Made by a program: the position numbers and the translations under genes. From a virus: a stretch of DNA of 64,000 nt. Location of the stretch: positions 1 to 64,000 of the IMG/VR virus record IMGVR_UViG_3300013093_000048, one strand, 5' to 3'. The notes below the pieces were generated by a model, which saw nothing but the letters and a program-made list of their open reading frames with translations, was not told the origin of the DNA and ran no database searches. The stretch's first letter is position 1; every line of letters starts with the position of its first letter. This document shows, in pieces, positions 18,329 through 31,661 of this stretch.

Positions 18329-20832
18329 TTGGTAGTATCTCCTTTAGGTTTTTGCTGCTGGGATAATAAGTCAGTAGCTGTATCTATTCTATGCTCATGA
18401 GCTTGCTGCGCTAATTGCGCCAACTGCAAAGCACCGGAAGTTAAAGTTTGACGTTTAGCGTTTTGGTGCTGCTGTTGCTGGTTGATAAAGTTAGTGGCCG
18501 TTGTAACGCCCGCTTGAACCTTCTTAGACTGCAGTTCCTGTGCTTTAAGCGCAAGTTCTTGAGCTCTAAACTGTTCATCAGCTTTGTCTTTAGCAACCTT
18601 GCGTTGCAACTCACCTTGTTTAACTTGCTGATCAATCAACTCAGCTTGCATTACTGGGTCTTGCGCATTTTGCTGGGCTTGCTGTTGGGCAGCCGTAGCT
18701 TGAGATTGAGCCAATACTTGAGGAGCTGCTTCCGCAATCAAACGAGAAAGTTGAACTTCCAAATCTGGTGATAGCTCTTCTTTTGGTGATGGGAGCGAAG
18801 CGCCCATTGCGTCTTCAATCTTCTGGCGGTATGCATAACCAACGTGCTCAGCAATATGAGCCTGCATTGCACCCATAATTACTTGAACTTGTGGGTTTTG
18901 GCCGATAAGCTGTTGAACAATCGGGTCTTGCATAGCCATCTGGTGGACCTTGATATGAGCTTCGTGATCCTGGAACATAAACGCTTTCATTGGCTTGCCT
19001 TTTAGTGCAGCCATATTTTCGCTTACAGGATCTTTCGGTTTTTGGTCATCATCAAGTGGAACTAGCTTGTCAGCATTCTTAATACCAAGCACGTCTAGCA
19101 TCTGACGGTGTAGTTCTGGTAAGTTGTAAATCTGTGGAGCTGACTGGGCTAACTGAATAACCGCTTGATACTGGACAACACGTTGAGACAGTGTGGCCGC
19201 GTTGGGGTCTGATACTGGTAGGATGTCTACGTGTTTGTAGTCAGCCCGCTTAACCTGCATGTCGCCATGCTCTGGCTCATAGTTGTACTCGTCGTCTGTG
19301 TAGTCACGGATAATACCCGCAAGCAATTTAAGTTCTTGACGCAGTGCGTAGTGTACGCGAGCCTGAACAGCTGACATAACCTTGAGAGTACGCTCCAAGA
19401 TAGCCAAAGTAGTACCAACAGGGGCGTTAGCCGACATGTCAGAGACCTGCATATCAGAAGTAGCCGCGAAGCGACGACCTTCTTCAATAATCTTATCCAT
19501 CAAACCAGCTAAAACAGCAGATGGTTCTTTGTACGGCAATGGCAGAATGTTATCGCGAATTGTTCCTGAACCAACATCTACGTCCCGGAATTCACCTGGA
19601 GCAATCGGAGTGTCATCTCCTTTGATACGTAACCCGCGAGACTTTAATCCGCCCGGCAGATTCGATAAGGTCCCTGCGTCAACGAGTTGGCGCAAGATGG
19701 AAGTGGCAGATTTAGCAAACCCACCAACAAGATGGAACAAACCGAAACCATAGGCGCCGTAACCAGGAATATACTGATAATGAACAAAGTGCTGTCTCTT
19801 AAGACGTAGCGGATCTTCTTCTTTCCAGTTTCTACGAATCGACAAAATCTGGTTTGTGCCGCGTACCATAGTGACAACATATGGGAGCGCAATGCCTGTT
19901 TCTTCTCCATCTTCGTCCTTATCTTCAAAACCTGGCAAATTTAAATCAACGTGCGCTTCGTATAACTCAAAGCGGTCGTCGTAAGTAGCTGTAAAGCCAG
20001 TCTCTTTATCTTTCTTTTCTTGAATCTCAGTGCGGAACTTCTGTGGCTCACCAAGCTCAACGTCCATGTAGAACCCAGCGCGTTGTAACTTAATGATGTC
20101 CTGTTTTGTTTTACGCATACGATGCGTAACACGGTGGCACGAAGCAATCTCACTCGCGCCGTAAGGCAACATAATATCTTCGGCTGGAATAAAAATTGAA
20201 ATCTGACGGCCGATGCTTGGGTCGTAGTACACTTTCTTAAACGCGGAACCGGCAGATGGCAAGTTCCACAACATGCGCTCATGCTCATTTCTGAACTCAG
20301 GCATCTTTTCTGTGAGCTGGTAATTCATATCCTGCTCAACACGCTGGGCCGCTTCCATTTTTTCGCGTGTCTCTTTACCAATAATCTGAGTACGCACTGG
20401 CCCCTTAGCAGGGAAAGTCTCCATAATTGTTTCTGACTGGAAACGTACAACAGCTTCTGTAATCATTGGGTGAAATACACCACAAGCACCATCCCATGGT
20501 TCTACGCGCTCTTCAAATTTCAAACCAAGCAGGGTAATACCGTCCTTATACATCTGCTCCCAGTCTTTTCTGGAAGTTAAGTCATTATCAATATCTTCTG
20601 TTAGTTCAGATGCAAGGGACTCTAGTGCGCCGCCATCAAGCTCTTCCGCTAAGTTAGCGTTAAACTCTTCGCTACCATCAACTTCATCCATCTTTTCGAT
20701 GTCAAGCTCAAAACCATCGCCAGCGATATGCACCGCTTCTGGATCTTCAATTTCAATCTCAATATCTGGCTCGTTCTGAGTCAGCGTCTCTAGGCCTTGC
20801 GGCGCTTGGTATAAACCTTTATCTACTGGCAT
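18325..20832 (-). CDS. Portal protein
   Basis: 835 residues. An acidic N-terminal 95 residues is followed by the portal core: RKDWEQMYKDGITLLGLKFE, PWDGACGVFHPMITEAVVRF, SAGSAFKKVYYDPSIGRQIS, FIPAEDIMLPYGASEI and RQHFVHYQYIPGYGAYGFGL. The last 170 residues are Gln/Ala-rich helices (IAEAAPQVLAQSQATAAQQQ) that would form the barrel or crown inside the capsid. The length is typical of podoviral portals. It lies two genes downstream of the large terminase as expected. The portal dodecamer is the DNA channel and packaging motor dock. Confidence 0.9.
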   Translation of the reverse strand: MPVDKGLYQAPQGLETLTQNEPDIEIEIEDPEAVHIAGDGFELDIEKMDEVDGSEEFNANLAEELDGGALESLASELTEDIDNDLTSRKDWEQMYKDGITLLGLKFEERVEPWDGACGVFHPMITEAVVRFQSETIMETFPAKGPVRTQIIGKETREKMEAAQRVEQDMNYQLTEKMPEFRNEHERMLWNLPSAGSAFKKVYYDPSIGRQISIFIPAEDIMLPYGASEIASCHRVTHRMRKTKQDIIKLQRAGFYMDVELGEPQKFRTEIQEKKDKETGFTATYDDRFELYEAHVDLNLPGFEDKDEDGEETGIALPYVVTMVRGTNQILSIRRNWKEEDPLRLKRQHFVHYQYIPGYGAYGFGLFHLVGGFAKSATSILRQLVDAGTLSNLPGGLKSRGLRIKGDDTPIAPGEFRDVDVGSGTIRDNILPLPYKEPSAVLAGLMDKIIEEGRRFAATSDMQVSDMSANAPVGTTLAILERTLKVMSAVQARVHYALRQELKLLAGIIRDYTDDEYNYEPEHGDMQVKRADYKHVDILPVSDPNAATLSQRVVQYQAVIQLAQSAPQIYNLPELHRQMLDVLGIKNADKLVPLDDDQKPKDPVSENMAALKGKPMKAFMFQDHEAHIKVHQMAMQDPIVQQLIGQNPQVQVIMGAMQAHIAEHVGYAYRQKIEDAMGASLPSPKEELSPDLEVQLSRLIAEAAPQVLAQSQATAAQQQAQQNAQDPVMQAELIDQQVKQGELQRKVAKDKADEQFRAQELALKAQELQSKKVQAGVTTATNFINQQQQHQNAKRQTLTSGALQLAQLAQQAHEHRIDTATDLLSQQQKPKGDTTK

Positions 20833-21062
20833 TTTAATTCCCTATCTATATTTCTAGCTTGATTTCTTTCAACTCTGCTTACGCAATGTGTTTCTAACTG
20901 AGCACGAGTTAACCCAAATTCGTTGCGTTCTAGCCACGCATTAACCCGTTCAGCGGTATGCTCTGCATGTTTTGAGTCGCGTTGTTGCTCGATTTTAACC
21001 TGACGCCAGATAGCGCGTGACATTTTTTTAACCTGCCACCAGGTTTTTAGCCATTTAAACAT
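20823..21062 (-). CDS. Small basic protein between terminase and portal
   Basis: 79 residues, MFKWLKTWWQVKKMSRAIWR..., very rich in Arg, Gln, Trp, and helical. Its start shares bases with the terminase stop and its end overlaps the portal start. No recognised family. A possible head-tail or packaging accessory role is only suggested by position. Confidence 0.7.
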   Translation of the reverse strand: MFKWLKTWWQVKKMSRAIWRQVKIEQQRDSKHAEHTAERVNAWLERNEFGLTRAQLETHCVSRVERNQARNIDRELKCQ

Positions 21063-22594
21063 TAGTAGTACGCCGCCTTTCGTCTGTACTTGTACTGCAA
21101 ATCATCTTTCTCGTCGGAGTCTAAACTAATGAATCCGCCCTGGCGGTAACGCAAAAGTGCCTGGGTTGTCGTATCCACATAGTCATCATGCTCGCCAACC
21201 GGGAATGCCGCCAATTCTTCTATTACGTCGCGGGCCCACCGCCTATCTGGAGCCCAGACTTTACCGCTGGAAAATAAATCAGATACCGCATTTAATCGAA
21301 CCATCTTGTCATTACCGCGCGATGGATTTGTCTCTTGGACTGGTATGCCCATCATCCTAAGTTCTTGAATTAGCGGGGCTCCTGAAGCCTTTTTCTCCAC
21401 AATGAACGCATCTGGTTGCCATTCTTTGTAGTGCTTTAGCGCGGTAGCTTTTAGTTCTGGGAACGCCATCCGGTCTTTAAATGCGTCGAGTAATATAAGG
21501 TTTGGGCTGTTCCCATCCTCTTCGTTGTACCAAACCCCCCACGTTGTGCACGCAGAGTAGTCAGACGTCGTCTTTGTTTCAAACGCCGTATCCCAGCTCT
21601 GAATTATGTATTCTACATGAGGAGGCTCATCTTTTTCCCACATCATCCAGTCTTTTCGCCCAATCACAGCACTCATGTCGCTAGTCGGGTTCTGCATGTA
21701 CTGGGCGTTCCAGTAACGGGGATCTAGTACTGCTTTTGTAGCTTTAAGCGTTTCAAGCGGCCACTGTTCTGGCCAAAGAGATTTTTCTTTGTCCGTATCC
21801 TCATTGAGGATGGCTGGTAGTTCTACGATTTCCCACGGTGTGGTGTGTGGGTTTTTTATGTTGTAGTCAATAATTCGCCCAGTGAGGTCAAGCAAAGACC
21901 AGCGAGTCATAATCACTATGATCGCACCCCCCGGCATTAAACGTTGCAGCGGACCAGTTTGAAACCAACTCCAGGCATTATCAAACGCTAGCCTGGAGTT
22001 TGCCTTCATATCCTGTTCAGAATGGGGGTCGTCAATAACAAACAGATCAGCGCCGCGTCCTGCCAGGGCTCCCCCCACACCAGCAGCATAATACTGGCCA
22101 CCAGCACCTGTACTCCACTTACCCGCTGCTTTTTGGTCGTCGGCGACGACTGTTCCTGGGAACACAGCTTTGTATTCATCCGAATCAATTAAGTTCCTCA
22201 CTCTCCGTCCAAAGTCTTCCGAGAGCCCCGCGGTATGCGTGGCCATAATGATTTTCTTCTCGGGGTACTGACCTAGAAAGTATGCCGGAAACAGATAGGA
22301 CGAAAACTCGGACTTGCCCATACGTGGTGCAATATTAATAATGACCCGTTTCTTTTTGCCCTCGACCACATCTTGGAAGATTTTAGCTAATTTGCGGTGC
22401 TGGGGCCCTATCTTAAAGCCTGGGTACACTGCTTTTGCAAACTCTAGGGGTTGATTCTGTGCACGATTGAGGTGCGTGCGATGTTCTTGTTCTTCTAAAT
22501 CTGCTAAAAACGCTAACTTTTCTTCCGTGCTCATGTCTTTTAGTGCTAGTTGCGCAGCAAGAGCCTCTTCTGGGGTTAGAAAGTCTAGTTTCAT
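21062..22594 (-). CDS. terL: Terminase large subunit
   Basis: 510 residues. ATPase: Walker A IAPRMGKSE (K94), Walker B LFVIDDP (184-190), a coupling motif around IIVIMTRWS (225-233). C-terminal RuvC-like nuclease: IIQSWDTAFETKTTSDYS with D335, DAFIVEKKASGAPLIQEL with its Glu, and HDDYVDTTTQALL with the final Asp. All catalytic positions appear intact. It cuts and translocates phage DNA into the prohead through the portal. The N-terminal Glu/Leu-rich 45 residues probably contact the small subunit. Confidence 0.95.
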   Translation of the reverse strand: MKLDFLTPEEALAAQLALKDMSTEEKLAFLADLEEQEHRTHLNRAQNQPLEFAKAVYPGFKIGPQHRKLAKIFQDVVEGKKKRVIINIAPRMGKSEFSSYLFPAYFLGQYPEKKIIMATHTAGLSEDFGRRVRNLIDSDEYKAVFPGTVVADDQKAAGKWSTGAGGQYYAAGVGGALAGRGADLFVIDDPHSEQDMKANSRLAFDNAWSWFQTGPLQRLMPGGAIIVIMTRWSLLDLTGRIIDYNIKNPHTTPWEIVELPAILNEDTDKEKSLWPEQWPLETLKATKAVLDPRYWNAQYMQNPTSDMSAVIGRKDWMMWEKDEPPHVEYIIQSWDTAFETKTTSDYSACTTWGVWYNEEDGNSPNLILLDAFKDRMAFPELKATALKHYKEWQPDAFIVEKKASGAPLIQELRMMGIPVQETNPSRGNDKMVRLNAVSDLFSSGKVWAPDRRWARDVIEELAAFPVGEHDDYVDTTTQALLRYRQGGFISLDSDEKDDLQYKYRRKAAYY

Positions 22595-23223
22595 TCGTCG
22601 TTATTGTTGTTTCTGGTGTACTCAGGAGCTATTACTTTCTCAACAACATCGAGCTCTTCTACTTCTACGACATCAACCTTGCCCATATAGCGGCTTAACT
22701 TTTCGCGGATTCGTTTTTCTAACTCTTCGTCGGATACTTCAGCTGATTTAACTTCCACCCGGTCTGTAAACAGCGCAACTTCAGTAACTTTACCTAGGAG
22801 CTCTAAGGCTTTTAGTCTTATCCTGGCATCCGGATGCTCAGTTTCTTTTACGATTTTGGCCACACTCATTGAGCGCAGCTCATTAGCCTGCTTTACAAAC
22901 TCCCACTGATAGCCGCTGACCATAGCCACGGCACTTACGATTTCTTCTGGGACCTGTAAATTGAGTAGTTGGTTCTTTGCGTCTGGGGAATTTGTAGCTA
23001 GGGCCGCAAATGCGTTGGCCACTTGTTGTTCTTGCGCGTTAGAGAGGATTTGTGCTTCTTCTTCCTCGTCGGCAAACTGGTTTAACCACTCGGCTGTTTG
23101 CTTTTGGGCGCCAAGGGTTTGGGGGGCAGTTAAGTCTTCTAATGGGGCAAAGTCTCCCGCACCCGGAGTAATCTCTGGGGTGAAGTCAGCAAAGTCGGCT
23201 GAAACTAAATGCTCTAAAAGCAA
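22591..23223 (-). CDS. Probable terminase small subunit (TTG start)
   Basis: 210 residues. A perfect AAGGAGGT sits seven bases before a TTG at 23223, so TTG is chosen. Helical and acidic, with a central block (VSAVAMVSGYQWEFVKQANE, DARIRLKALELLGKVTEVAL) that resembles the helical core and coiled coil of small terminases. The C-terminus EKRIREKLSRYMGKVDVVEV would contact TerL. Assignment rests on overlap with terL (ATGA) and helix pattern. Confidence 0.6.
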   Translation of the reverse strand: MLLEHLVSADFADFTPEITPGAGDFAPLEDLTAPQTLGAQKQTAEWLNQFADEEEEAQILSNAQEQQVANAFAALATNSPDAKNQLLNLQVPEEIVSAVAMVSGYQWEFVKQANELRSMSVAKIVKETEHPDARIRLKALELLGKVTEVALFTDRVEVKSAEVSDEELEKRIREKLSRYMGKVDVVEVEELDVVEKVIAPEYTRNNNNDE

Positions 23224-23340
23224 ACTAACTACCTCCTTGGTTGCGCTGGGGTGAGCGAATGTTGGCAGTATACAACAGTTTTATTTTTAGTGTATACTTC
23301 TTTTGCGTGTAGCTTTTCCTCCTTCGTTTGGGCTATACGT
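23224..23340 (-). promoter_or_regulatory. Leader of the terminase operon
   Basis: Minus-strand leader with a TATACT hexamer (23272-23267) and GTATAC at 23293-23298. No good -35 lies 17 bp before the hexamer. Further up is a second GAAGGAGG-like sequence (about 23312-23319) with no open frame behind it. Transcription may simply come from the tRNA or main leftward promoter. Confidence 0.35.
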
Positions 23341-23365
23341 GAAACTCCTTGATGTGATGGTTTGG

Positions 23366-23397
23366 CCCCCGGACTTAAAACGCCCGGGGGTTTTTTT
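23366..23397 (+). terminator. Strong intrinsic terminator read on the plus strand
   Basis: CCCCCGG-N11-CCGGGGG followed by seven T on the plus strand. On the minus strand the hairpin lacks a U-run, so leftward late transcription should pass. It would stop stray rightward transcription from the late block before the tRNA genes and control region. Confidence 0.8.
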
Positions 23398-23400
23398 ATG

Positions 23401-23485
23401 TGGTACTCCCCCTGAGATTCGAACTCAGATGCCTTTCGACACTGGTTTCTAAGACCAGCGCGTCTACCAATTCCGCCAAGGGAGC
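23401..23485 (-). tRNA. tRNA-Leu (anticodon UAG)
   Basis: 85 nt with CCA encoded. Acceptor GCTCCCT/GGGGAGT, anticodon stem CTGGT/ACCAG with loop CTTAGAA, class II variable arm (TGTCGAAAGGCA), T-arm with TTCGAAT. Discriminator A as expected for leucine. Confidence 0.93.
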
Positions 23486-23498
23486 AAAACAATTTAGG

Positions 23499-23570
23499 GG
23501 TGTCTGTTGAGATTTGAACTCAAACTACCTGCATCACAAACAGGGGTGCTCACCCTTACACTACAGACAC
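23499..23570 (-). tRNA. tRNA-His (anticodon GUG)
   Basis: 72 nt. Acceptor GTGTCTG/CAGACAC, D stem GTGT/GCAC, anticodon stem CCTGT/GCAGG with loop TTGTGAT, T-arm TTGAG/CTCAA with TTCAAAT, discriminator C73 (His identity). CCA is not fully encoded (CCT). The base at position -1 is T, not the G that pairs with C73 in normal bacterial tRNA-His. Confidence 0.88.
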
Positions 23571-23595
23571 ACTTAAAGTGTCTTTTAATGATTAT

Positions 23596-23673
23596 TGGTC
23601 TGGGTGGTGAGATTCGAACTCACAGCCTCTTCGTTCCAAACAAAGCCGTCTACCAGGTTGACATTACACCCAG
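23596..23673 (-). tRNA. tRNA-Pro (anticodon UGG)
   Basis: 78 nt with CCA encoded. Acceptor CTGGGTG/CACCCAG, anticodon stem CTTTG/CGAAG with loop TTTGGAA, T-arm GTGAG/CTCAC with TTCGAAT. The D stem fits best as TGTC/GACG, leaving one extra base after U8-A9, so the D-arm is slightly irregular. Confidence 0.85.
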
Positions 23674-23713
23674 AGAGAATCGGTCGCGGAAGAATAGTTT
23701 GTTTCATGCTGGA

Positions 23714-23722
23714 AGTATAACA
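23714..23722 (-). promoter_or_regulatory. Candidate extended -10 promoter for the tRNA cluster
   Basis: Minus-strand TGTTATACT is an extended -10 (TGn-TATACT) immediately after the terminator of the 42-residue gene, about 40 bases before tRNA-Pro. No clear -35. The form TGTTATAAT is also the early promoter's core at 24324-24332. Confidence 0.5.
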
Positions 23723-23724
23723 CA

Positions 23725-23747
23725 AAATAAAAAGGGGCCGAAGCCCC
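23725..23747 (-). terminator. Intrinsic terminator with UUCG loop
   Basis: Minus strand: GGGGC-TTCG-GCCCC then TTTTTATTTT. It ends the transcript of the 42-residue gene just upstream of the tRNAs. Same architecture as the terminator at 12926-12948. Confidence 0.9.
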
Positions 23748-23768
23748 TAGTGGTTTTCACCAACAACT

Positions 23769-23897
23769 TTATTTTACCAGCTGTTTAAGGCTAGAGATCA
23801 CGGCGTTGATCCAGAACTCGTTTACCTGCTTTACTTGCTCAGTTACTTCTTGGGCTTTGGCGTAGGCTTTGTCCCACTCTTTATAAAAATCAAACAT
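23769..23897 (-). CDS. 42-residue phasin-like small protein
   Basis: MFDFYKEWDKAYAKAQEVTE to SSLKQLVK, stop at 23771-23769. The ATG at 23897 has AAGGAAA eight bases ahead. It forms one amphipathic helix. The FYKEWDKAYAKAQEVTEQV style resembles the first helix of phasin-type granule-associated proteins of beta-proteobacteria, but phage helices of low complexity can look alike, so this is a hint only. It is transcribed alone: promoter at 23951-23979, terminator at 23725-23747. It is the first gene leftward from the control region. Confidence 0.75.
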   Translation of the reverse strand: MFDFYKEWDKAYAKAQEVTEQVKQVNEFWINAVISSLKQLVK

Positions 23898-23950
23898 GGT
23901 GTTTCCTTTCTTAGTTGTTTCCCATACTGTACGTTTCTGGGATTTTGTGT

Positions 23951-23979
23951 AGTATACGATACATTTTGTTGCAGTGCAA
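23951..23979 (-). promoter_or_regulatory. Leftward sigma70-type promoter
   Basis: Minus strand TTGCAC (23979-23974), 17-bp spacer, TATACT (23956-23951). The -35 lies inside the odd palindrome GTTGCA-G-TGCAAC (23968-23980), which could be an operator. It would start the 42-residue gene and, by read-through, the tRNA/late block. Confidence 0.6.
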
Positions 23980-23997
23980 CATTTGTCTGGGGCTTTT

Positions 23998-24050
23998 TTG
24001 TAAAGTTTTGGCGCGGGATTGTAAAGTTAAACTGCTGGGATTGTAAAGTT
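23998..24050 (+). repeat. Three iteron-like direct repeats
   Basis: TTGTAAAGTT occurs at 23998-24007, 24019-24028 and 24041-24050, with 21 and 22 bp between starts, i.e. two helical turns. The last two copies are embedded in a 14-bp identical block, GGGATTGTAAAGTT. Same-face spacing suggests cooperative binding of an initiator or regulator. Confidence 0.7.
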
Positions 24051-24055
24051 TTGTA

Positions 24056-24119
24056 GGTTCCTTTTTGGAACCTTTAGGTATCAATTGGGCGCGGGGTTTT
24101 ATACCTATGGGTATCAATT
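24056..24119. repeat. Palindrome and paired GGTATCAATT repeats in control region
   Basis: GGTTCC-TTTTT-GGAACC at 24056-24072, then GGTATCAATT at 24077-24086 and 24110-24119. The second copy is part of ATACC-tatg-GGTAT (24101-24114). These are extra candidate binding sites next to the iterons. Confidence 0.6.
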
Positions 24120-24120
24120 T

Positions 24121-24136
24121 CGCTAGCCGGCTAGCG
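24121..24136. repeat. 16-bp perfect palindrome
   Basis: CGCTAGCCGGCTAGCG is its own reverse complement over all 16 bases. It lies midway between the leftward and rightward promoters. Likely a dimer-binding operator or structural element; it is unlike the GGACAG family. Confidence 0.75.
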
Positions 24137-24323
24137 CAAAAAGTAAATAATTAGACACGTAACCCCTTGATTTTTATAGAAAATTTTACAAAATTTGACA
24201 TTTTTTAGCTGTGCGGCTAAGGAACAATGATCTAGTGACCATGTCACCACTCCCACCAAACGGCTGGATACCCCCCTAGTGGGGTCTAGCCTAGCCAAAC
24301 CGCCAAGCCACAAAGCCCCTGTA
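24137..24323. other. Remaining non-coding part of the control region
   Basis: No convincing gene on either strand. It holds an AT-rich stretch (about 24165-24207), ATTTTACAAAATTT as a partial inverted match to the iterons, GTGACCATGTCAC (a 6-bp-arm inverted repeat at about 24236-24248), and ACCCCCCTAGTGGGGT around 24268-24283. Together with 23898-24136 it makes a 500-bp divergent, repeat-rich region. Confidence 0.6.
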
Positions 24324-24332
24324 TGTTATAAT
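24324..24332 (+). promoter_or_regulatory. Rightward early promoter (extended -10)
   Basis: TGTTATAAT, a perfect extended -10. The region 17 bp upstream has no good -35, which extended -10 promoters tolerate. Predicted start is around 24339, so the GGACAG palindrome at 24341-24356 falls on the start and initial transcribed bases. Confidence 0.65.
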
Positions 24333-24340
24333 AGAGTCAT

Positions 24341-24356
24341 GGACAGGAAGCTGTCC
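24341..24356. repeat. GGACAG-N4-CTGTCC palindrome, copy 1
   Basis: GGACAG-GAAG-CTGTCC. Sits directly at the predicted start point of the early promoter, where a bound repressor would block initiation or escape. Confidence 0.85.
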
Positions 24357-24361
24357 TATCG

Positions 24362-24390
24362 AGCCAAGCCTAACCGCTTGGCTTTTCTTT
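24362..24390 (+). terminator. Terminator-like hairpin in the early leader (attenuator candidate)
   Basis: AGCCAAGC-CTAACC-GCTTGGCT followed by TTTCTTT. A perfect 8-bp stem and U-rich run lie between the early promoter and the first early gene, 25 bases before its start codon. Confidence 0.75.
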
Positions 24391-24414
24391 TATCTAAATC
24401 GAAGGAGCAATACT

Positions 24415-24837
24415 ATGTCTTACATCACAGCAACCAAAGGTAGCAACATCACTTATGACCAATTCGCTTTTGGCTTAGGTGTTCAGTCCCGTATCACGCT
24501 TGAGGAGTCAGAGGTATGGCACAAGCAATACATCAAGGAAGATACAGACGCACAGAAGGAATGGGCTCACGAGTGGAGATTGAACTACCTCATGGGGTTC
24601 TTGAAGATAGACCAAAAGCAAGCGGACAGAATCCTGTCCCAAACCCGTGATGAGAGAAAGCCCGATCATCAAAAGGCTTACAAGCGAGCCAACTCTCAGT
24701 TCGTGTATCACATCGTCAGACCTGTTGAGAAAGCCACAGCCTTTAAGCAAACCAAAGTATCACTTGACAAGGTTGTCGAGTTGTTCGAGCAGTTGAGTAA
24801 AGCCGAGCAAGCCAAGTTCATGCGTATCGTCAAGTAA
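24415..24837 (+). CDS. First early protein, unknown
   Basis: 140 residues, MSYITATKGSNITYDQFAFG..., helical and charged; ends SKAEQAKFMRIVK. The ATG follows GAAGGAG at ideal spacing. Residues about 70-75 (QADRILSQ) are coded by copy 2 of the GGACAG palindrome. First rightward gene after the promoter; such genes often subvert the host, but nothing in the sequence shows what it does. Confidence 0.75.
   Translation: MSYITATKGSNITYDQFAFGLGVQSRITLEESEVWHKQYIKEDTDAQKEWAHEWRLNYLMGFLKIDQKQADRILSQTRDERKPDHQKAYKRANSQFVYHIVRPVEKATAFKQTKVSLDKVVELFEQLSKAEQAKFMRIVK
24624..24639. repeat. GGACAG-N4-CTGTCC palindrome, copy 2 (inside gene)
   Basis: GGACAG-AATC-CTGTCC, in the coding sequence of the first early gene, reading as Asp-Arg-Ile-Leu-Ser. 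Confidence 0.85.
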
Positions 24838-24885
24838 GCGTGGCTTCTACGCAGTTTAATTTAATGTCAAACCACAGGAGTAATC

Positions 24886-25056
24886 ATGCACTTAACCAAA
24901 GCACAGCAGTTAGCCATGCGCCAAATGGTCAGGGAACAACGGGACAGGATTCTGTCCGACACCAAGCCTAGACCTGACTACCACAAGCCCATAACAATGG
25001 GCGAAGTCTTTATGACCTTTAACCGCAACACCTACAAACAGGGGAAATACGAATGA
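24886..25056 (+). CDS. Small early protein
   Basis: 56 residues, MHLTKAQQLAMRQMVREQRD to NRNTYKQGKYE. The ATG follows CAGGAG; the TGA overlaps the next ATG. It contains RDRILSDTK, coded by copy 3 of the palindrome and matching DRILSQT in the first early protein. Unknown function. Confidence 0.7.
   Translation: MHLTKAQQLAMRQMVREQRDRILSDTKPRPDYHKPITMGEVFMTFNRNTYKQGKYE
24942..24957. repeat. GGACAG-N4-CTGTCC palindrome, copy 3 (inside gene)
   Basis: GGACAG-GATT-CTGTCC within the 56-residue gene, in the same reading frame as copy 2 and again coding Asp-Arg-Ile-Leu-Ser. Confidence 0.85.
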
Positions 25057-25232
25057 AGCAAATCAAAGCAATCGTTAAGCAGTTCAACCATGAGCCTTTG
25101 GCAGAGGCTTTTATCTTAGAAGCAATAACCCGCTACGCCAATGATGTGTTAGCAGACGATAGTGATTGGGGCAACTCGATCATATCCAAGCAAGCATGGC
25201 AGGGCATAGCACAAGCAATCAAGGGGGACTAA
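25053..25232 (+). CDS. Small early protein
   Basis: 59 residues, MKQIKAIVKQFNHEPLAEAF to AWQGIAQAIKGD. Begins within the stop of the previous gene (ATGA). Helical; EAFILEAITRYANDVL and SIISKQAWQGIAQAI would form a small bundle. Unknown function. Confidence 0.7.
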   Translation: MKQIKAIVKQFNHEPLAEAFILEAITRYANDVLADDSDWGNSIISKQAWQGIAQAIKGD

Positions 25233-25234
25233 CC

Positions 25235-25378
25235 ATGTCAGCTATGAAAGACCTAGTGATGGACATAATCCATTTGTATAGAGAGGGCTATTCTGTATTT
25301 GGCATAGCCCAAACCCTTAACCTAAGCATGAAAGAAGTAAACGAAGTAGTCTGTAATTACATAACCCCAACCAACTAA
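25235..25378 (+). CDS. 47-residue helix-turn-helix protein
   Basis: MSAMKDLVMDIIHLYREGYS then VFGIAQTLNLSMKEVNEVVC. The ATG at 25235 follows AAGGGGG; a longer frame to 25166 lacks such a site. The 'hxxLYREGYSVFGIAQTLNLSMKEV' pattern is a typical helix-turn-helix (RNA-polymerase sigma-4/transposase class). A small DNA-binding regulator; it is a candidate reader of the GGACAG palindromes around it. Confidence 0.7.
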   Translation: MSAMKDLVMDIIHLYREGYSVFGIAQTLNLSMKEVNEVVCNYITPTN

Positions 25379-25388
25379 GGAGCATCAC

Positions 25389-25664
25389 ATGAAATCAATC
25401 CAATTACACCCAAACACCACATACCTCCAACTCATGGTATCAGGCAAAGCCACAGGCAATCGTTCTAATGTATGGGTCGTAGTCCGCAAGCGGAACGGTG
25501 AAGTAGGCGAGATTAAGTTCAAAGGCAATAAGCCCCACGACTTCACCTCTTTAGCAAGGGCTACGCAAGCCTATCGTAAGCTCGTTAAACAAGACGGGCA
25601 AGATAGTGGCTGGTGCATCATTACCTCAGATGAGTTAGCTCGTTCTAGCTTCGTTTGGCTTTGA
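25389..25664 (+). CDS. Early protein, unknown
   Basis: 91 residues, MKSIQLHPNTTYLQLMVSGK..., predicted beta-rich with VWVVVRKRNGEVGEIKFKGN and GWCIITSDELARSSFVWL. Good AAGGAG ribosome-binding site. I do not recognise the family. Confidence 0.7.
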   Translation: MKSIQLHPNTTYLQLMVSGKATGNRSNVWVVVRKRNGEVGEIKFKGNKPHDFTSLARATQAYRKLVKQDGQDSGWCIITSDELARSSFVWL

Positions 25665-25678
25665 TTAGAGGTATGTTT

Positions 25679-25696
25679 GGGACAGGTTTCTGTCCC
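25679..25696. repeat. GGACAG-N4-CTGTCC palindrome, copy 4
   Basis: GGGACAG-GTTT-CTGTCCC, the longest-armed copy (7 bp each side), intergenic just after the 91-residue gene. No U-run follows, so it is not a simple terminator. Confidence 0.85.
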
Positions 25697-26040
25697 GTTT
25701 ATCTAGGATATGCACGCTTATTGTGCATATGGTAATTGTCTAGTTTATTTAGCATGTGGACACTACCTTGACGCCCGCAACCCTTTATCCTATGTGCGTC
25801 TACCACATTCCCAACACACCTATATATATAAATACTAAATTCTAAATATATATATATAAGGGTAAATAAGTGGACTCTTTCTTTTGTGTCTTACTTTCTT
25901 AGTCCTTAAATTGCTGGAATTGCGTAGACATGTGTGATGGAAGTGGGACAACCCTGTATACTATAAGGCTCAAACACCTGACAACTACTGTGGACAACAT
26001 AGGTCTGCCAAGTGGACATTAGTATACTTTTATGGCTAAA
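25697..26040. other. Non-coding region with AT-rich tract and repeated GTGGAC
   Basis: No gene seen on either strand. It contains ATATGCAC-N7-GTGCATAT (25708-25730), an almost purely A/T tract at 25821-25858, and GTGGAC in the same orientation at about 25756, 25870, 25990 and 26012. TGTGGACAA (25989-25997) is one base off the reverse complement of a DnaA box. TATACT hexamers at 25957-25962 and 26023-26028 could be -10 elements. A second origin or early promoter region is possible. Confidence 0.5.
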
Positions 26041-26042
26041 CG

Positions 26043-26058
26043 GGACAGAAACCTGTCC
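26043..26058. repeat. GGACAG-N4-CTGTCC palindrome, copy 5
   Basis: GGACAG-AAAC-CTGTCC. It begins 15 bp downstream of the TATACT at 26023-26028, so it covers the early transcribed bases of a possible promoter, as copy 1 does at the main early promoter. Confidence 0.85.
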
Positions 26059-26075
26059 GAACATTGGAGAATCGT

Positions 26076-26669
26076 ATGAAAAAACTAACCAAACACGAAC
26101 AACTCACCTGCAAAAAATGCGGGGAAACTAAGGAGCGAAATGAATTTAAGCGGAGAATGACTGCCGAAGAATACAGCAAAGCCCTAAATAGGAGAGTAGA
26201 AACAGGAACTACGGTCATCAGCTCTTTGTGCAAATCGTGCCAACCAAAACGCAAGCCAAGAGCAAAGCTAACCCTCAAGCAACTACGCAACAAGATCACA
26301 AACAAACGCATAAACGAGAAGCTAGGAGAAGCCCTGATAGAGGAGAAACGCCAAGCAATCAACAAAACAAGATCCCGCCACATGAAAGAGAGATGGCAAA
26401 AAGAAAAGGGCAAGGAGAGAGCCGAGCTCAAGGCAAGCCTAGATAAAGAAGTAAACCGAGCCAAGAGCACCTACTCGGCATACAAAAGACGGACAGAAAC
26501 CTGCCCCATCAAGCAAACAAGACAGACCAAGTGGAACAGCGAACAAGAAAGACAAGATTTAATACAACAGCGCCTTGCTCACTTGGCGGTTTTGCAAGAG
26601 CAATATAGATTTACCCAACAAAAACGAAAGGAGAAGTTATACGAATACGACCAACGCAACAATAAGTAA
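26076..26669 (+). CDS. Basic zinc-finger-like protein
   Basis: 197 residues from the ATG at 26076 with GGAGA ahead (a TTG at 26064 is in frame but less likely). Residues 10-55 hold CKKCGETKERNEF...SSLCKSCQP, a Cys4 zinc ribbon. The rest is a very long Lys/Arg/Glu helix (EKRQAINKTRSRHMKERWQK). The zinc ribbon with a charged coil suggests nucleic-acid binding; similar proteins in phages are uncharacterised as far as I know. Confidence 0.75.
   Translation: MKKLTKHEQLTCKKCGETKERNEFKRRMTAEEYSKALNRRVETGTTVISSLCKSCQPKRKPRAKLTLKQLRNKITNKRINEKLGEALIEEKRQAINKTRSRHMKERWQKEKGKERAELKASLDKEVNRAKSTYSAYKRRTETCPIKQTRQTKWNSEQERQDLIQQRLAHLAVLQEQYRFTQQKRKEKLYEYDQRNNK
26491..26506. repeat. GGACAG palindrome, copy 6 (degenerate, inside gene)
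   Basis: GGACAG-AAAC-CTGCCC within the zinc-finger gene; one base differs from the consensus. Confidence 0.6.
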
Positions 26670-26698
26670 ACAACCACTAACAAACGAAAGGAAAAGTC

Positions 26699-27256
26699 AT
26701 GACCACAAGAACTCAAACTGTGGAAGAAATGATTGAGCAACTGCGGGGGGTAGTAGAAGAAAACGGGAGAATAGCAAGAGATGCACGCTTACCCGTATTT
26801 GACCAGCCAACATCTGAACTCAAAATCCCCAACGCATACCGAAGGCTACACCCACTTGACCCTGCCCAAGCAGTAAACAAGGAAGACTTGCGACCTGCAG
26901 GGGTAGAGATGAGCACCACTATCAAGTACATACTACGCAACGGCGATCAAGGTCAAAGTTTAGGTAGGAGTATGTGGTGGGGTGATAGACCGCACGAAGA
27001 CGGAACAATCGTGGCGTATAAGATTATCAAGCTGGAGAAAGGGTGGATTGATTGGGGTAATAGGTTTGATGCAGGAGAGAACCTCGACACCCAAGGCGGT
27101 ATACCCACAGGACTAAGCCCGACAACCCTCACTCAAGTATGGCTACGCGACTACAACGAACCACAACCCGACCACAGGCACGCATCATCTTGGGACTGGA
27201 ATATATCGGGTGAGGGTGGTGGCGACATCATGAAGTATCGGATTATTCGTAGGTAA
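26699..27256 (+). CDS. Early protein, unknown
   Basis: 185 residues, MTTRTQTVEEMIEQLRGVVE (helical), then a C-terminal beta region with PTGLSPTTLTQVWLRDYNEP and SSWDWNISGEGGGDIMKYRI. Strong AAAGGAAAAG site. It is directly upstream of the amidoligase cassette. No family recognised. Confidence 0.7.
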   Translation: MTTRTQTVEEMIEQLRGVVEENGRIARDARLPVFDQPTSELKIPNAYRRLHPLDPAQAVNKEDLRPAGVEMSTTIKYILRNGDQGQSLGRSMWWGDRPHEDGTIVAYKIIKLEKGWIDWGNRFDAGENLDTQGGIPTGLSPTTLTQVWLRDYNEPQPDHRHASSWDWNISGEGGGDIMKYRIIRR

Positions 27257-27271
27257 ACAAAAGGAGGCAGT

Positions 27272-27379
27272 ATGAATTACAACAGGTTTGAGTTGTATAG
27301 CCGTATAGCTTTATTGCTTTGCAGTATTTTTATAGTAGGTCAAGTAGTTCGTTATCTAGTAGTTCTGTTGTTTAAATGA
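27272..27379 (+). CDS. 35-residue membrane peptide
   Basis: MNYNRFELYSRIALLLCSIF, IVGQVVRYLVVLLFK. Perfect AAAGGAGG eight bases upstream of the ATG. One hydrophobic helix spans most of it. It lies just before the amidoligase gene. It could be a small inner-membrane peptide; possible partner of the downstream cassette, with no direct evidence. Confidence 0.6.
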   Translation: MNYNRFELYSRIALLLCSIFIVGQVVRYLVVLLFK

Positions 27380-27382
27380 ATG

Positions 27383-27398
27383 GGGCAGAATTCTGTCC
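27383..27398. repeat. GGACAG palindrome, copy 7 (degenerate)
   Basis: GGGCAG-AATT-CTGTCC, in the short gap between the 35-residue gene and the amidoligase gene, so it lies immediately upstream of the cassette. Confidence 0.65.
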
Positions 27399-27434
27399 CG
27401 TCAAACCATCACTTAAAACATAGGAGTTTATAGT

Positions 27435-28934
27435 ATGCCAACACCAACATACACATCAGCACAAATCAACGCAGTAGAAACACAATATAACCGAGCAAGA
27501 GATTCACAAAAGCCTCTGCTCACCGAGTTCTTCCGCTACAAGCTCGAGCATGTGCGCCGTCCAGAGTTATGGACAAGGGCTGAGTATCTATCCATCGCCA
27601 AGGGGCAACTCAAGCGCAATATGGAGAAAAGCATTCGATCGTATCGCACTTATATCGGTGGCTCTGAGAAACGCCACTACGAGAGTCTTATGAACCAGCG
27701 CCGTCACTTCTACGAGATCGGCAAGATGATAGCCGATTGCTTCCGCACCCAAGACGACAGCGAGCTAGTTAGTATCCTCAACGACAACACCACTATCAGG
27801 GACAAACTAGGTGCTGGTGAGTGGTGCGAGATACTCAATGATGTCGACAAATTTCCCAACGCACCCGACTATAACTACTGTTCTGACTGCGACTACATCG
27901 AGTGCGAGGACGATGGCACATGGGTATACAACGGCGATCGCTGGATTTGCTCAGATTGTCGTGACAATCACTATCGCTGGTCTGACTACCATGACTGCGT
28001 GGTGCACGAGGATGACGAAGAGCCTGATCAAGATGATGACGATGAGGATGAAGAAGATGTCGGTCCGATCGGTAGCTATCACAGTAGTAAGTCCAAGCTA
28101 GGGTTCATACCAACCAAATACTCTCTTAGAAAGACCCCTGTGTATATGGGCTTAGAGCTAGAGATGGAGATGTCTGACGGCGATGCCTCACGGCGTGAGC
28201 GTGCTGAGCACTTACTACAATCGGTCAAGGAATACAAAGACGATGCGACAGGTAAGACATATACCTATGCACTGCTCGAGCAAGACGGCTCACTTAATCA
28301 CGGCTTCGAGATGGTCACAGGCTATACGGGTCTTGATGTGCATGCCAAGCAACTAGCGTTCTTCAAGCAACCATTTGAGGGTATGAAGTCGCACGATACC
28401 AAGACTTGCGGTCTTCATGTGCATATCTGTAAGAAGGGTATGTCTATGTTCCATGCCGCTAAGTTAATCTTGTTCATGCACGACAGCCGTAATCAACGCC
28501 TGTTCAAAGCTATCGCACGCCGTGACTCTAGTAGATACAGCCAAGTCAAGAACAAGACGGCTGACTATTCATGGGTCAAGCACGCTAAGTCAGACGGTAT
28601 GCGTAGGCTCAACGAGGATCGCTATGAGTCAGTCAACTTCCAACCCGAACGCACAGTCGAGTTCCGCCTGTTCAAGGGCACGCTACGCTACGAGACCATC
28701 ATGGCTTGCTTGGAGTTTACTTATGCCTCATGGTTCTTTACTCGTGACACAGGGCAACAAGACTTAACCTCCGAGAACTTTATCAAGTTTATCTGCCAAC
28801 CCGACCAACGCAAGGACACCATCTATCTACGGTCATTCTTGCGGTCTAAGGGCTTCATGCTAGATAAACAAGCGGTGGTCAAGCCCAACCCACGCATTGA
28901 ACAAACCAAGCAACTTCACACAACCGAAGCATAA
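27435..28934 (+). CDS. Amidoligase-like enzyme with Cys cluster and acidic linker
   Basis: 499 residues. N-terminal helices (1-130), then a Cys cluster (C149, C152, C157, C172, C175: CSDCDYIEC...WICSDC) that looks zinc-binding, an acidic run (about 192-209, DDDDEDEEDVG), and an amidoligase_2-type domain from about 235. Motifs: GLELEMEM (239-246), LLEQDGSLNHGFEMVTG (280-296), TCGLHVHICK (324-333), TVEFRLFKGTL (407-417). These correspond to the acidic metal-binding pairs, the H-x-H and the R/E strand of the glutamine-synthetase-like carboxylate-amine ligases. The enzyme would activate a carboxylate with ATP and join it to an amine. It heads a cassette with a glutamine amidotransferase and an ATP-grasp protein. 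Substrate unknown. Palindrome copy 7 lies before its start and copy 8 right after its stop. Confidence 0.82.
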   Translation: MPTPTYTSAQINAVETQYNRARDSQKPLLTEFFRYKLEHVRRPELWTRAEYLSIAKGQLKRNMEKSIRSYRTYIGGSEKRHYESLMNQRRHFYEIGKMIADCFRTQDDSELVSILNDNTTIRDKLGAGEWCEILNDVDKFPNAPDYNYCSDCDYIECEDDGTWVYNGDRWICSDCRDNHYRWSDYHDCVVHEDDEEPDQDDDDEDEEDVGPIGSYHSSKSKLGFIPTKYSLRKTPVYMGLELEMEMSDGDASRRERAEHLLQSVKEYKDDATGKTYTYALLEQDGSLNHGFEMVTGYTGLDVHAKQLAFFKQPFEGMKSHDTKTCGLHVHICKKGMSMFHAAKLILFMHDSRNQRLFKAIARRDSSRYSQVKNKTADYSWVKHAKSDGMRRLNEDRYESVNFQPERTVEFRLFKGTLRYETIMACLEFTYASWFFTRDTGQQDLTSENFIKFICQPDQRKDTIYLRSFLRSKGFMLDKQAVVKPNPRIEQTKQLHTTEA

Positions 28935-28935
28935 C

Positions 28936-28951
28936 GGACAGAAACCTGTCC
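28936..28951. repeat. GGACAG-N4-CTGTCC palindrome, copy 8
   Basis: GGACAG-AAAC-CTGTCC, between the amidoligase and amidotransferase genes. Identical in its N4 to copy 5. It is the last copy seen; none was found in the remaining early region. Confidence 0.85.
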
Positions 28952-28991
28952 CAAGTAATACAAACAAACCAATCTAAATAAAGGAAATCAT

Positions 28992-30161
28992 ATGTGTTTA
29001 TTAGTCGTTCAACCAGCAACAGCCCCTTCATTAACTCAAGCATGGCTCGAGGATTTCTATGCGTCTAACTCTGACGGCGTTGGTATTATGCGTAGCGTAG
29101 AAGGGGAACTCCTGATAGAAAAAATATTACCCAAAAACGCACAGGAGTTTGTAGATTTCTATCGCAACCATATTGACGGACATGACTGCGCGTTCCACTT
29201 GCGTATGAAAACCCACGGCAATATCGACATGGAAAATTGCCACCCGTATGAGGTGTTCAACAAAGCCGAGCACGGTGTAGATGTATGGCTCATGCACAAC
29301 GGCATCTTGTCCACAGGTAATGCGGGCGACACAACCAAGTCAGATACATGGCACTACATCCGTGACTACTTGCGCCCTATGCTTGCCAACAACATTGACT
29401 TTATATTTACCGATGCGTTTGCTGACATCATTGGCGATCATATCGGCGGGTCTAATAAGTTCGTGCTCATGGATAGCAATGGTCGCACTCAGACTGTCAA
29501 TCAAGACGCTGGTGTATTTTGGGGCGGTCGTTGGTTATCTAATACTTATGCATGGTCTAGTCCGCTCAATGCATCTAAGACTTTCAAAGACGACCACGAC
29601 TTAGCCATTGACGAGATCGAGGCAGCACCATACAAGACATCGTATAAGTCTGCCAATAGTAGCTACAAGAAATGGTCTACGGGTTATATGACTGGATACG
29701 AGGCATACGATGACGAAGACTATTGGGAGAAGTATGACAGCAAGACTGGCACATGGGGTAAGCAAGCCCAGCAGTATGATCGCCCTGTGTATGTGCCCCC
29801 TGTCGGTGGCTTAGGTGATGACGATAGCGACTTCGTTGACGCAGAGTATTCAGTTGTTGGCGAAGATGGCGTTGCTCGCACCGAGGTATATGGTGTGTCG
29901 GCACAGGAAGCAGACGATGTAATGGAGGACTTGTTGTTAGAGATCGAGGCGCAGTTCGAGATCCAGCATATCAGCCGTGTGTCTGCGTATGAGTTCGTTG
30001 AGGAGTTCGGTATCGACAACTTCATGGAGGTGTCTTACATGGCGCTAGATGACATGATTGATAGCGGTTGGTATGAGCGTATCATCACAGACTTTGCGTT
30101 AGCACGCGAGGCATTCCCTTGGCTTGAGCGCACCAAGCCTGAGCGTTTAGCAATTAACTAA
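28992..30161 (+). CDS. Class II glutamine amidotransferase
   Basis: 389 residues. The start is fixed by AAAGGAAATCAT and by Cys2, which after Met removal becomes the N-terminal nucleophile of Ntn-type amidotransferases. Other family motifs: NSDGVGI (26-32), HLRMKTHG (69-76; the R and T/S-x-G position), CHPYEV (83-88), LMHNGIL (100-106), and KSDTWHY (116-122). All expected GATase II features are present. It hydrolyses glutamine and channels ammonia. The C-terminal half (about 190-389) is acidic and unfamiliar and may dock the ligases. It lies between the two ligases, so ammonia or glutamine-derived nitrogen is the likely input to amide formation. Confidence 0.85.
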   Translation: MCLLVVQPATAPSLTQAWLEDFYASNSDGVGIMRSVEGELLIEKILPKNAQEFVDFYRNHIDGHDCAFHLRMKTHGNIDMENCHPYEVFNKAEHGVDVWLMHNGILSTGNAGDTTKSDTWHYIRDYLRPMLANNIDFIFTDAFADIIGDHIGGSNKFVLMDSNGRTQTVNQDAGVFWGGRWLSNTYAWSSPLNASKTFKDDHDLAIDEIEAAPYKTSYKSANSSYKKWSTGYMTGYEAYDDEDYWEKYDSKTGTWGKQAQQYDRPVYVPPVGGLGDDDSDFVDAEYSVVGEDGVARTEVYGVSAQEADDVMEDLLLEIEAQFEIQHISRVSAYEFVEEFGIDNFMEVSYMALDDMIDSGWYERIITDFALAREAFPWLERTKPERLAIN

Positions 30162-30170
30162 GGAGGTAGT

Positions 30171-30377
30171 ATGGCTGTATTTTATGTAATAACTGCGGCA
30201 ACTCGTTTTGAATTTAAGCGGGTTGTTGCTGACACAAAAGAACGAGCAGAGAAAATTTCATACGAATCGCCTGATGGTTGGAAGTTTGCATATCAAAGCG
30301 ACAACTACGAACACTACGCTACATACACAAAGAAAGAAGCACTAGAAGGAGGGTGGTTAGATGAAGAAGTATCATGA
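30171..30377 (+). CDS. Small protein in the amide-ligase cassette
   Basis: 68 residues, MAVFYVITAATRFEFKRVVA... ending EGGWLDEEVS. Perfect AAGGAGGT site nine bases downstream of the amidotransferase stop, so it is in the same operon. A compact alpha/beta protein by pattern. It is a candidate carrier or substrate, on position alone. Its stop overlaps the start of the next gene. Confidence 0.7.
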   Translation: MAVFYVITAATRFEFKRVVADTKERAEKISYESPDGWKFAYQSDNYEHYATYTKKEALEGGWLDEEVS

Positions 30378-30678
30378 AGAACACATCAAGGTCGAAAGAC
30401 CTCACCTAAACATAGACGGCTCACTACAACGCATATATAAATTCCCTAATAACTATGGGGCTAGTATTGTGTGGGGTGGGGACTTAACATTCATGCGTGA
30501 CAACGCACATGCCCCTTATGAGCTAGCTGTCATTAGATTTATAGATGATGATGAATACTACTTAGACTATTCAACTGGGCTAACTACCGATGTATTCAGG
30601 CATCAAAACGAAGAGCAGATACGGGATCTGCTTAAGCAAATTAAAAACTTAGAAGAGGTGGCATATGGAATTGAGTGA
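30361..30678 (+). CDS. Small protein in the amide-ligase cassette
   Basis: 105 residues, MKKYHEEHIKVERPHLNIDG..., with YGASIVWGGDLTFMRDNAHA (beta-rich) and a C-terminal helix EEQIRDLLKQIKNLEEVAYG. Overlaps both neighbours. Looks like a small globular protein of unknown family; position suggests it acts with the ligases. Confidence 0.7.
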   Translation: MKKYHEEHIKVERPHLNIDGSLQRIYKFPNNYGASIVWGGDLTFMRDNAHAPYELAVIRFIDDDEYYLDYSTGLTTDVFRHQNEEQIRDLLKQIKNLEEVAYGIE

Positions 30679-30886
30679 ATTGTTTTTATTGGCATGGGCT
30701 TGCGTGGCTACAATTGCGGCGGGCTATTTTCATACTAACTTACGCAAGGCTATGAAAGGAGGAGTAATACTTTGCATGATCATTGAGTCTGTTGCAAAGG
30801 GCGAAGCTGAATTAAAGTTACACCCCGATGGGCGTATGTCTGTTGATATGGGTGATCACGAAGTTACATTAAGGGAGCACGAATAG
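30665..30886 (+). CDS. Small protein with hydrophobic N-terminus
   Basis: 73 residues. Residues 5-22 (ELFLLAWACVATIAAGYF) form a membrane helix or uncleaved signal; the rest, HTNLRKAMKGGVIL and ELKLHPDGRMSVDMGDHEVT, is hydrophilic. Directly precedes the ATP-grasp gene. Could tether the cassette product to the inner membrane; not shown by sequence. Confidence 0.65.
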   Translation: MELSELFLLAWACVATIAAGYFHTNLRKAMKGGVILCMIIESVAKGEAELKLHPDGRMSVDMGDHEVTLREHE

Positions 30887-30887
30887 T

Positions 30888-31661
30888 ATGACAAACACAT
30901 CAAGGGTAGCCATAGCCCCATACAAGCGGGGCAGTAGAAGTGCAAGGTTACTGCGTGATGCACTAACGCAAGAGCTGGGTCGCAATGTTTTATTCATTGC
31001 ACCTGAGAGGGTTAGCCATTGTAAGCCTAGCCGTATCGTTATTAACTGGGGTAGTAGTGTGGTTGATGGCGATGGGGCGTGTCGTATACTAAATCGTCCT
31101 GACGCAGTATTTATGGCGGCTAACAAACAGCACTCTCTATATGAATTTAGCACACACAGCATACCCCATCCCGAGTTCACAACGGACAAGGATATGGCTA
31201 GGTGCTGGCTGGACAATGGGCATAAGGTTATGTGTCGCACCCTTCTGTCTGCTCACTCAGGTCAGGGTATTGTTGTAGCCAAGCAACACGATCAGTTAGT
31301 AGACGCCCCGTTGTATACCAAATACATACGCAAACAAAAGGAGTTTAGAGTCCATGTATTTAATAGTAAAATTATTGACATACAAGAAAAGCGTAGGAGT
31401 TCTAGTGTTGCTGACCACCACCCTTATATTCGAAACCATGCAAACGGGTATGTCTTTTGTCGGGGTGATATCGAAGAACCTCATGATCTTAGGGGCGTGG
31501 CTACATCTGCCGTTAGTGCATTAGGTCTAGACTTCGGTGCAGTAGATGTTATATGGAATGAGGCACAGGATAAGTGCTATGTGTTAGAAGTAAATACAGC
31601 GTGCGGTCTAGAGGGTTCGACTGTTAACAAATATGTTAATGCAATTAAGGAGGTTGTATGA
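30888..31661 (+). CDS. ATP-grasp carboxylate-amine ligase (RimK-like)
   Basis: 257 residues. N-terminal domain 1-75; then MAANKQHSLYEF (ATP-grasp domain start with K80), HSGQGIVVAK (Gly-rich loop, 123-132), YIRKQKEFRVHVFNSKII (146-163; R154/V/H as in RimK-type enzymes), LGLDFGAVDVIWNE (212-225) and YVLEVNTACGLEGST (231-245; metal-binding E234 and N236). The set is complete, so it should be catalytically active: it makes an acyl-phosphate of a carboxylate and joins it to an amine. It is the third enzyme of the cassette with the amidoligase and amidotransferase. Confidence 0.85.
   Translation: MTNTSRVAIAPYKRGSRSARLLRDALTQELGRNVLFIAPERVSHCKPSRIVINWGSSVVDGDGACRILNRPDAVFMAANKQHSLYEFSTHSIPHPEFTTDKDMARCWLDNGHKVMCRTLLSAHSGQGIVVAKQHDQLVDAPLYTKYIRKQKEFRVHVFNSKIIDIQEKRRSSSVADHHPYIRNHANGYVFCRGDIEEPHDLRGVATSAVSALGLDFGAVDVIWNEAQDKCYVLEVNTACGLEGSTVNKYVNAIKEVV

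Follow-up and report, generated by a model that had tools for sequence, protein, structure and literature searches.

A dispersed palindrome array and a candidate first-gene regulator in the early region of an uncultured podovirus-like phage

The early region of the virus analysed here carries an array of eight 16-bp palindromes. Comparison with related genomes establishes the array, its conservation, a paired swap in its half-sites and the link between this swap and residues 79 and 90 of the first early gene product. From these comparisons, we consider it reasonably probable, though well short of certain, that this gene (gene 1) encodes an autoregulatory DNA-binding protein, which we infer to bind the dispersed operator array and, by repression, to shut off early transcription. 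The window, i.e. the whole stretch of DNA that was analysed, comprises bases 1 to 64000 of a 64,362-base virus record. Its phage looks like a podovirus, judging from its portal, terminase and ejection-type proteins, and its terminase has 49-51% identity to Pelagibacter phage HTVC027P, phage 023Pt_psg01 and DSL-LC04.

The sequence-only reading of this DNA had described an extended -10 promoter, an operator-like palindrome and a terminator ahead of the first early gene, and all three are found there. The palindrome is strongly supported as operator-like and belongs to a whole array, seven copies of which had been overlooked, including three inside coding sequence. With up to two mismatches, GGACAG-N4-CTGTCC occurs eight times in the 64-kb window, always between 24341 and 28951; 1.61 copies are expected, and none of 100 shuffles reaches eight. 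The control pattern, namely the palindrome read backwards, had no match in the window. Once three mismatches are allowed, the number of copies ceases to stand out (19 vs 15.7).

One of the eight sites covers the expected start point, three lie within genes and four between genes (positions are given without strand). S1 (GGACAGGAAGCTGTCC, 24341-24356), the copy at that start point, follows the -10 with a spacing of 8 nt. S2 (24624-24639) is inside the first early gene, where it encodes DRILS, as does S3 (24942-24957) inside ORF 24886-25056. S4 (25680-25695) begins 16 bp past ORF 25389-25664, and S5 (26043-26058) is found ahead of ORF 26076-26669, which itself contains S6 (26491-26506, one mismatch, encoding RTETCP). 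S7 (27383-27398, one mismatch) precedes ORF 27435-28934, and S8 (28936-28951) separates the latter from ORF 28992-30161. Directly behind S4 and S5 (25680-26058), the sequence modules of different relatives change, as if the sites marked recombination joints.

The extended -10 of the early promoter (TGTTATAAT, 24324-24332, plus strand) was read in the sequence and has no good -35. A generic promoter scan of positions 20000-30000 missed it and returned fewer sites than shuffled sequences did (8 vs 12.9); the promoter call thus rests on conservation. TATA.T is unchanged across 16 aligned leaders, and the spacing between the -10 and the palindrome is 8 nt in all 17 pattern-matching S1 sites. Upstream of the promoter, at 23990-24060, a TTGTAAAGTT motif is present three times, twice as GGGATTGTAAAGTT, and these copies resemble -35/-10 hexamers on the minus strand. 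Genes for tRNA-Leu, tRNA-His and tRNA-Pro (23401-23673, minus strand) are located just to the left of the early promoter region.

Between S1 and gene 1, the leader harbours an intrinsic terminator (24361-24393, plus strand), which is a candidate attenuator. Its stem (24361-24384) reads AGCCAAGC-CTAACC-GCTTGGCT, with eight perfect pairs and a ninth as G.T, and is followed by a T-rich tail. The RNA from 24330 to 24400 has a folding energy of -24.3 kcal/mol (z -3.94), and none of 200 shuffles is as stable. Among 15 distinct leaders, the stem is paired in 105/105 cells, and one of the seven aligned stem pairs changes on both sides, in three leaders. Both the number of paired cells and the covariation score are above those of shuffles (2/500 reach each), while the tally of pairs altered on both sides does not exceed them (198/500 reach that value). 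The terminator persists in L012, L015 and L029, in which a different hairpin replaces the S1 palindrome. Its conservation by compensatory changes, which extends to leaders lacking the palindrome, marks the terminator as an independent, conserved leader feature and makes attenuation of transcription plausible.

Relatives were collected as 20 loci from a gene-1 protein search and 11 picked from a motif scan. The exact-motif scan yielded 60 stretches, many of them unrelated and with a single copy. GGAYAG-type sites are present in 31/31 relative records, with one to 11 per record and the fewest in short contigs, and their slots are common to the relatives. The arms of the 16-bp inverted repeat are invariant except at positions 3/14 and 4/13. 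At positions 4/13, the 112 distinct sites comprise 73 C-G, 38 T-A, one T-G and no C-A combinations, and the T-type GGATAG-N4-CTATCC is the main site type in 9/33 records. Thus, both halves change jointly, in places with 80/80 flanking bases identical. Between L029 and L111, whose backbones are near-identical (42 mismatches in 1468 aligned bases), the three shared palindromes hold six mismatches, all of them at positions 4/13. Site pairs of opposite types with at least 72/80 identical flanking bases form twelve groups, most of which pair a C-type with a T-type genome; the exceptions involve L111, which is matched in addition with L033, L051 and L078, T-type genomes that keep a C-type S5. Distinct sites agree with the type of their genome in 71/72 cases for C-type genomes and 36/43 for T-type genomes, the other sites of the latter being six C-type and one mixed.

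S1 is intact in 11 of the 18 relatives displayed, and therefore promoter-proximal binding is not universal; its variation argues against S1 acting as a simple promoter operator in every relative. In L007, L018 and L050, which are C-type genomes, S1 has an imperfect GGATAG-like form, GGATAGAACATCTATTC. In L012, L015, L029 and L067, its place is taken by a different hairpin beginning with ATAGAGGTATCG, possibly an older 5' RNA element. L180 and L196 also carry a similar motif in their leaders.

To find alignment columns that distinguish C-type from T-type genomes, ten protein families were compared. The product of gene 1 (24415-24837, plus strand, 140 aa), the proposed palindrome-binding autoregulator, is the only one with clean columns following the swap. 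Leaving out three C-type records without gene 1, residue 79 is Asp in 21/21 C-type genomes and Thr (six) or Gly (three) in the nine T-type genomes, and residue 90 is Lys in 21/21 C-type and Met in 9/9 T-type genomes. Among the nine other families, only that of ORF 27435 gave a separating column, which is ragged, with mixed residues and 4 vs 14 rows. Four of the 16 gene-1 haplotypes can be labelled in 1820 ways; at least two separating columns arise in 22 of them and a strict one-residue swap in four, and both counts include the true labelling. The gene-1 tree (24 rows) requires about three changes of site type and rejects a common clade of all T-types only by a narrow margin (AU p 0.045); its one starred independent pair is too few for a sign test. 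Gene 1 adjoins S1 and S2, and hence linkage contributes to the association between residues and sites.

The AlphaFold model of the gene-1 protein, built from 24 sequences, is all-helical with a mean pLDDT of 80.1, and pLDDT is 91-95 in a block over residues 51-100. It includes a helix-turn-helix-like unit (H67-75/H83-101), with residue 79 in the turn and residue 90 in the long second helix. A fold search of the PDB with this model gave no match at E below 0.001, and the best Z in another comparison was 4.5. No convincing match was found in the BFVD, the best being an uncharacterised phage protein (E 3.3e-3). PDB sequence matches to pentatricopeptide proteins (E down to 8e-6) span 20 residues and pass no stretch threshold, and they were attributed to chance.

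The early protein that is still found by tblastn in distant relatives is a basic CxxC...CxxC protein (26076-26669, plus strand). It was rejected as the binder: none of its columns tracks the site type, and 17 of the 23 arrays found with the best 80 of 596 terminase matches (see below) have no profile match to it. Its homologue in L136 shows weak matches to HNH/endonuclease VII, and the protein of the window shows none. Further along the early operon (27435-31661) are amidoligase-like and RimK/S6 glutaminyl-transferase-like genes, together with a class-II glutamine amidotransferase-like gene that is a weak match below the cut-off. Elsewhere in the window, a 2766-aa ORF (47397-55697, minus strand) has PHROG matches (E up to 0.001) in its C-terminal part only, to two families of unknown function.

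The palindromes look like sites on double-stranded DNA, since they occur in both orientations and at coding as well as intergenic positions, with pairing confined to the arms. The inner positions leave most sites asymmetric (A..C or G..T), and relative to transcription the 111 distinct sites are divided 48 vs 48 between the two orientations, the other 15 being symmetric or otherwise. Pairing stops at the six arm positions: the flanks 0/17 are mostly C..C (32) or G..G (29), with Watson-Crick pairs in 22/111 sites. At positions 3/14, A.C (eight) is about as frequent as G.U (six). The 28 distinct coding sites always use TCC for Ser (28/28, vs 1/34 nearby), and their synonymous bases switch jointly, GAC occurring with CTG (20/20) and GAT with CTA (8/8). 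At S6, the peptide encoded by ORF 26076 changes along with the DNA, being RTETCP in the window and RIETYP in the aligned GGATAG genomes.

These features bear on the other half of what had been proposed for the leader, attenuation or phage-directed antitermination of the early operon. The conserved stem keeps attenuation plausible, while the equal orientations, the mixture of coding and intergenic sites and the lack of pairing beyond the arms speak against antitermination. Unlike lambda N/boxB, whose hairpin is on the transcribed strand only, the sites are equally frequent in both orientations and flank pairing is not kept; on these grounds, boxB- or put-like RNA antitermination was rejected. 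More generally, the early transcript could fold at the palindromes into hairpins to which a phage protein binds, leading to boxB-like antitermination or to mRNA processing. The leader does fold into two hairpins, joint changes at 4/13 would suit base pairing as well, and several leaders have a different hairpin at S1; nevertheless, we consider such an RNA signal improbable. Because of the two-way orientation, the loops in the RNA would be of two unrelated kinds (AAAC and GUUU), the flanks mostly fail to pair, and A.C mismatches match G.U pairs in frequency at 3/14. Rfam searches of positions 23000-30000 at gathering scores detected only the three tRNAs.

Two other explanations give the sites different roles. 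The gene-1 protein might bind the array without repressing, and instead activate, organise the DNA, mark a replication region or separate sibling genomes. We regard this as unlikely but worth keeping in mind: three sites are in genes and several are between genes with no obvious promoter, and S1 is not intact in 7/18 relatives, but wherever S1 matches the pattern it lies 8 nt behind the -10 (17/17), where a bound dimer should block initiation. Also against it, none of 13 records has a ParB_N match. By the same search, of records that may be incomplete, a ParB-parS partition system was rejected (matches in 10/14 controls). The remaining explanation, plain leader attenuation with palindromes serving as module-joining linkers in recombination, would account for the terminator in all 15 distinct aligned leaders and for the modules that change right behind S4 and S5. 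It appears very improbable to us, as linkers explain neither a paired half-site swap that tracks gene-1 residues nor in-gene sites with fixed codons.

For the preferred reading, an autoregulatory gene-1 protein with dispersed operators, the steps that we infer (use of the host polymerase, binding, dimerisation, repression, roadblocking and superinfection exclusion) would run as follows. Host RNA polymerase would start at the extended -10 promoter and pass S1, and the leader terminator would then probably trim transcription. Read-through would lead to expression of gene 1 and the downstream operon. The gene-1 protein would bind the eight operators as a dimer, on double-stranded DNA. As it accumulates, it would cover S1 at the start point and thereby block initiation, and on S2-S8 it would block the elongating polymerase, so that the early region would be turned off. 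Silencing would extend to a related phage that enters the same cell with sites of the same type.

By analogy with known regulators, such a system is Cro-like in position and stoperator-like in layout. In lambda and Mu, Cro and Ner are products of an early gene immediately downstream of the early promoter; they turn this promoter down, acting at a few clustered operators. Gene 1 is likewise directly behind an operator-bearing early promoter, with S1 intact in 11/18 relatives, but the sites here continue through several genes. Compared with the helix-turn-helix of Cro and Ner, the gene-1 model has an HTH-like helix pair with no significant PDB match. The repressor of phiC31, a temperate phage, binds conserved inverted repeats (CIRs), which are palindromic operators dispersed through the early region. 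The array resembles the CIRs by site layout, palindromic operators being spread over the early region.

Of the documented systems found, stoperators of Cluster A mycobacteriophages such as L5 and Bxb1 are the closest. As described in the passages cited, many sites are located within and downstream of the early promoter, and their sequence varies between relatives in step with the regulator; they are 20-30 asymmetric 13-mers distributed genome-wide, oriented with transcription and bound by a monomer, in temperate phages (PMC6550527, PMC9283540). As in L5-type phages, many sites here are at or beyond the early promoter, and motif and candidate regulator diverge together. In contrast with the asymmetric 13-bp sites of those descriptions, the window array consists of 16-bp inverted repeats, eight in 4.6 kb, and instead of following transcription the distinct sites are equally divided in orientation (48 vs 48 of 111). 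Also unlike these temperate phages, no integrase was found in 13 records, which may be incomplete, and the candidate regulator family has no recognised relative in the searches made. In the Nostoc cyanophages A-1 and N-1, motifs that recur many times, with logos built from 43 and 21 sequences, were considered possible stoperators; they are mostly intergenic, inconsistently oriented and asymmetric, and no specific regulator is named in the passage concerned (PMC4916379). These freshwater phages share with the present ones many repeated motifs without consistent orientation; unlike those asymmetric motifs, the sites here are palindromic and have a candidate regulator. No description of arrays of this kind was found in the open-access literature searched, including PMC9599517 and PMC10611076 by word search.

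In the 13 records, which are linear and may be incomplete, no match was found for integrase (PF00589), resolvase (PF00239), transposase (PF00665) or ParB_N (PF02195), the last of which was matched in 10/14 control genomes. RNA_pol (PF00940) also had no match in the 13 records, but no control genome matched either, making this search uninformative. In the GTDB genome set, 160 stretches fit the gene-1 pattern and none was confirmed as a gene-1 relative. Together, the missing matches for the four families and the lack of a confirmed gene-1 relative in the GTDB set suggest that these phages are not temperate, with the proviso that the records may be incomplete.

A profile of the CxxC protein led to more distant relatives, which have other repeated palindromes, such as AACTSGCAGACA-N3-TGTCTGCSAGTT, TGTGGACA-N3-TGTCCACA and TGGGAG-N5-CTCCCA; these relatives, in which the CxxC protein is kept, were thus found with that protein. 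In L120-L136, which have AACTSGCAGACA sites, the second array site comes right after the stop codon of gene 1 and has a T run behind it (e.g. L120, 5954), so that this site may double as an intrinsic terminator. The best 80 of 596 terminase matches provided a further set of 43 loci with >2.5 kb upstream. Among these loci from the best 80 of 596, a palindrome of the region's own recurs four or more times in 23 early regions and fewer than four times in 20; four copies are reached in none of 860 shuffles and in none of the 27 late regions examined from these loci. Their motifs amount to 20 strings, or about 18 after merging registers, some being one-base variants. In this same set (best 80 of 596), gene-1 relatives were found by profile in 10/43 loci, and profile matches to gene 1 and to the CxxC protein accompany only eight and six of the 23 arrays, respectively. 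The first 50 kb each of HTVC027P and DSL-LC04 have no array with at least three copies of 6-bp arms.

As read from the leaders, the first site closely precedes the initial start codon in 7/25 arrays (L157, L165, L168, L180, L185, L186 and L196). The first genes of the distant array phages show weak homology to gene 1 (hhalign probability 64, E 6.4e-5, 20 C-terminal columns), and the models of both families end in a two-helix hairpin. The model of the distant first-gene family had no fold match in the PDB. A C-terminal motif was discarded as a general mark of first genes, the strict pattern being present in 3/25 arrays.

Operator arrays that evolve with their regulator and define immunity groups are documented, in the passages cited, for temperate actinophages (PMC6550527, PMC9283540). 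Here, the same logic would operate in environmental podoviruses in which no integrase was detected; their protein family is a different one, their sites are symmetric, and their motifs turn over extensively. Tentatively, and with less confidence than for gene 1 itself, we propose that a large podovirus clade, uncultured and apparently non-lysogenic, may use immunity-type regulation without lysogeny. A fast-evolving DNA-binding protein encoded by the first gene would act on dispersed operators, with about 18 motifs among 43 early regions (from the best 80 of 596 terminase matches) and specificity switching via about two residues, for early shut-off and for transcription-level exclusion of co-infecting phages of the same type. 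As a natural data set, these phages allow the co-evolution of regulator and operator to be followed, even between near-identical backbones with differences at paired operator bases, and they make it testable whether lytic phages exclude each other through transcriptional silencing.
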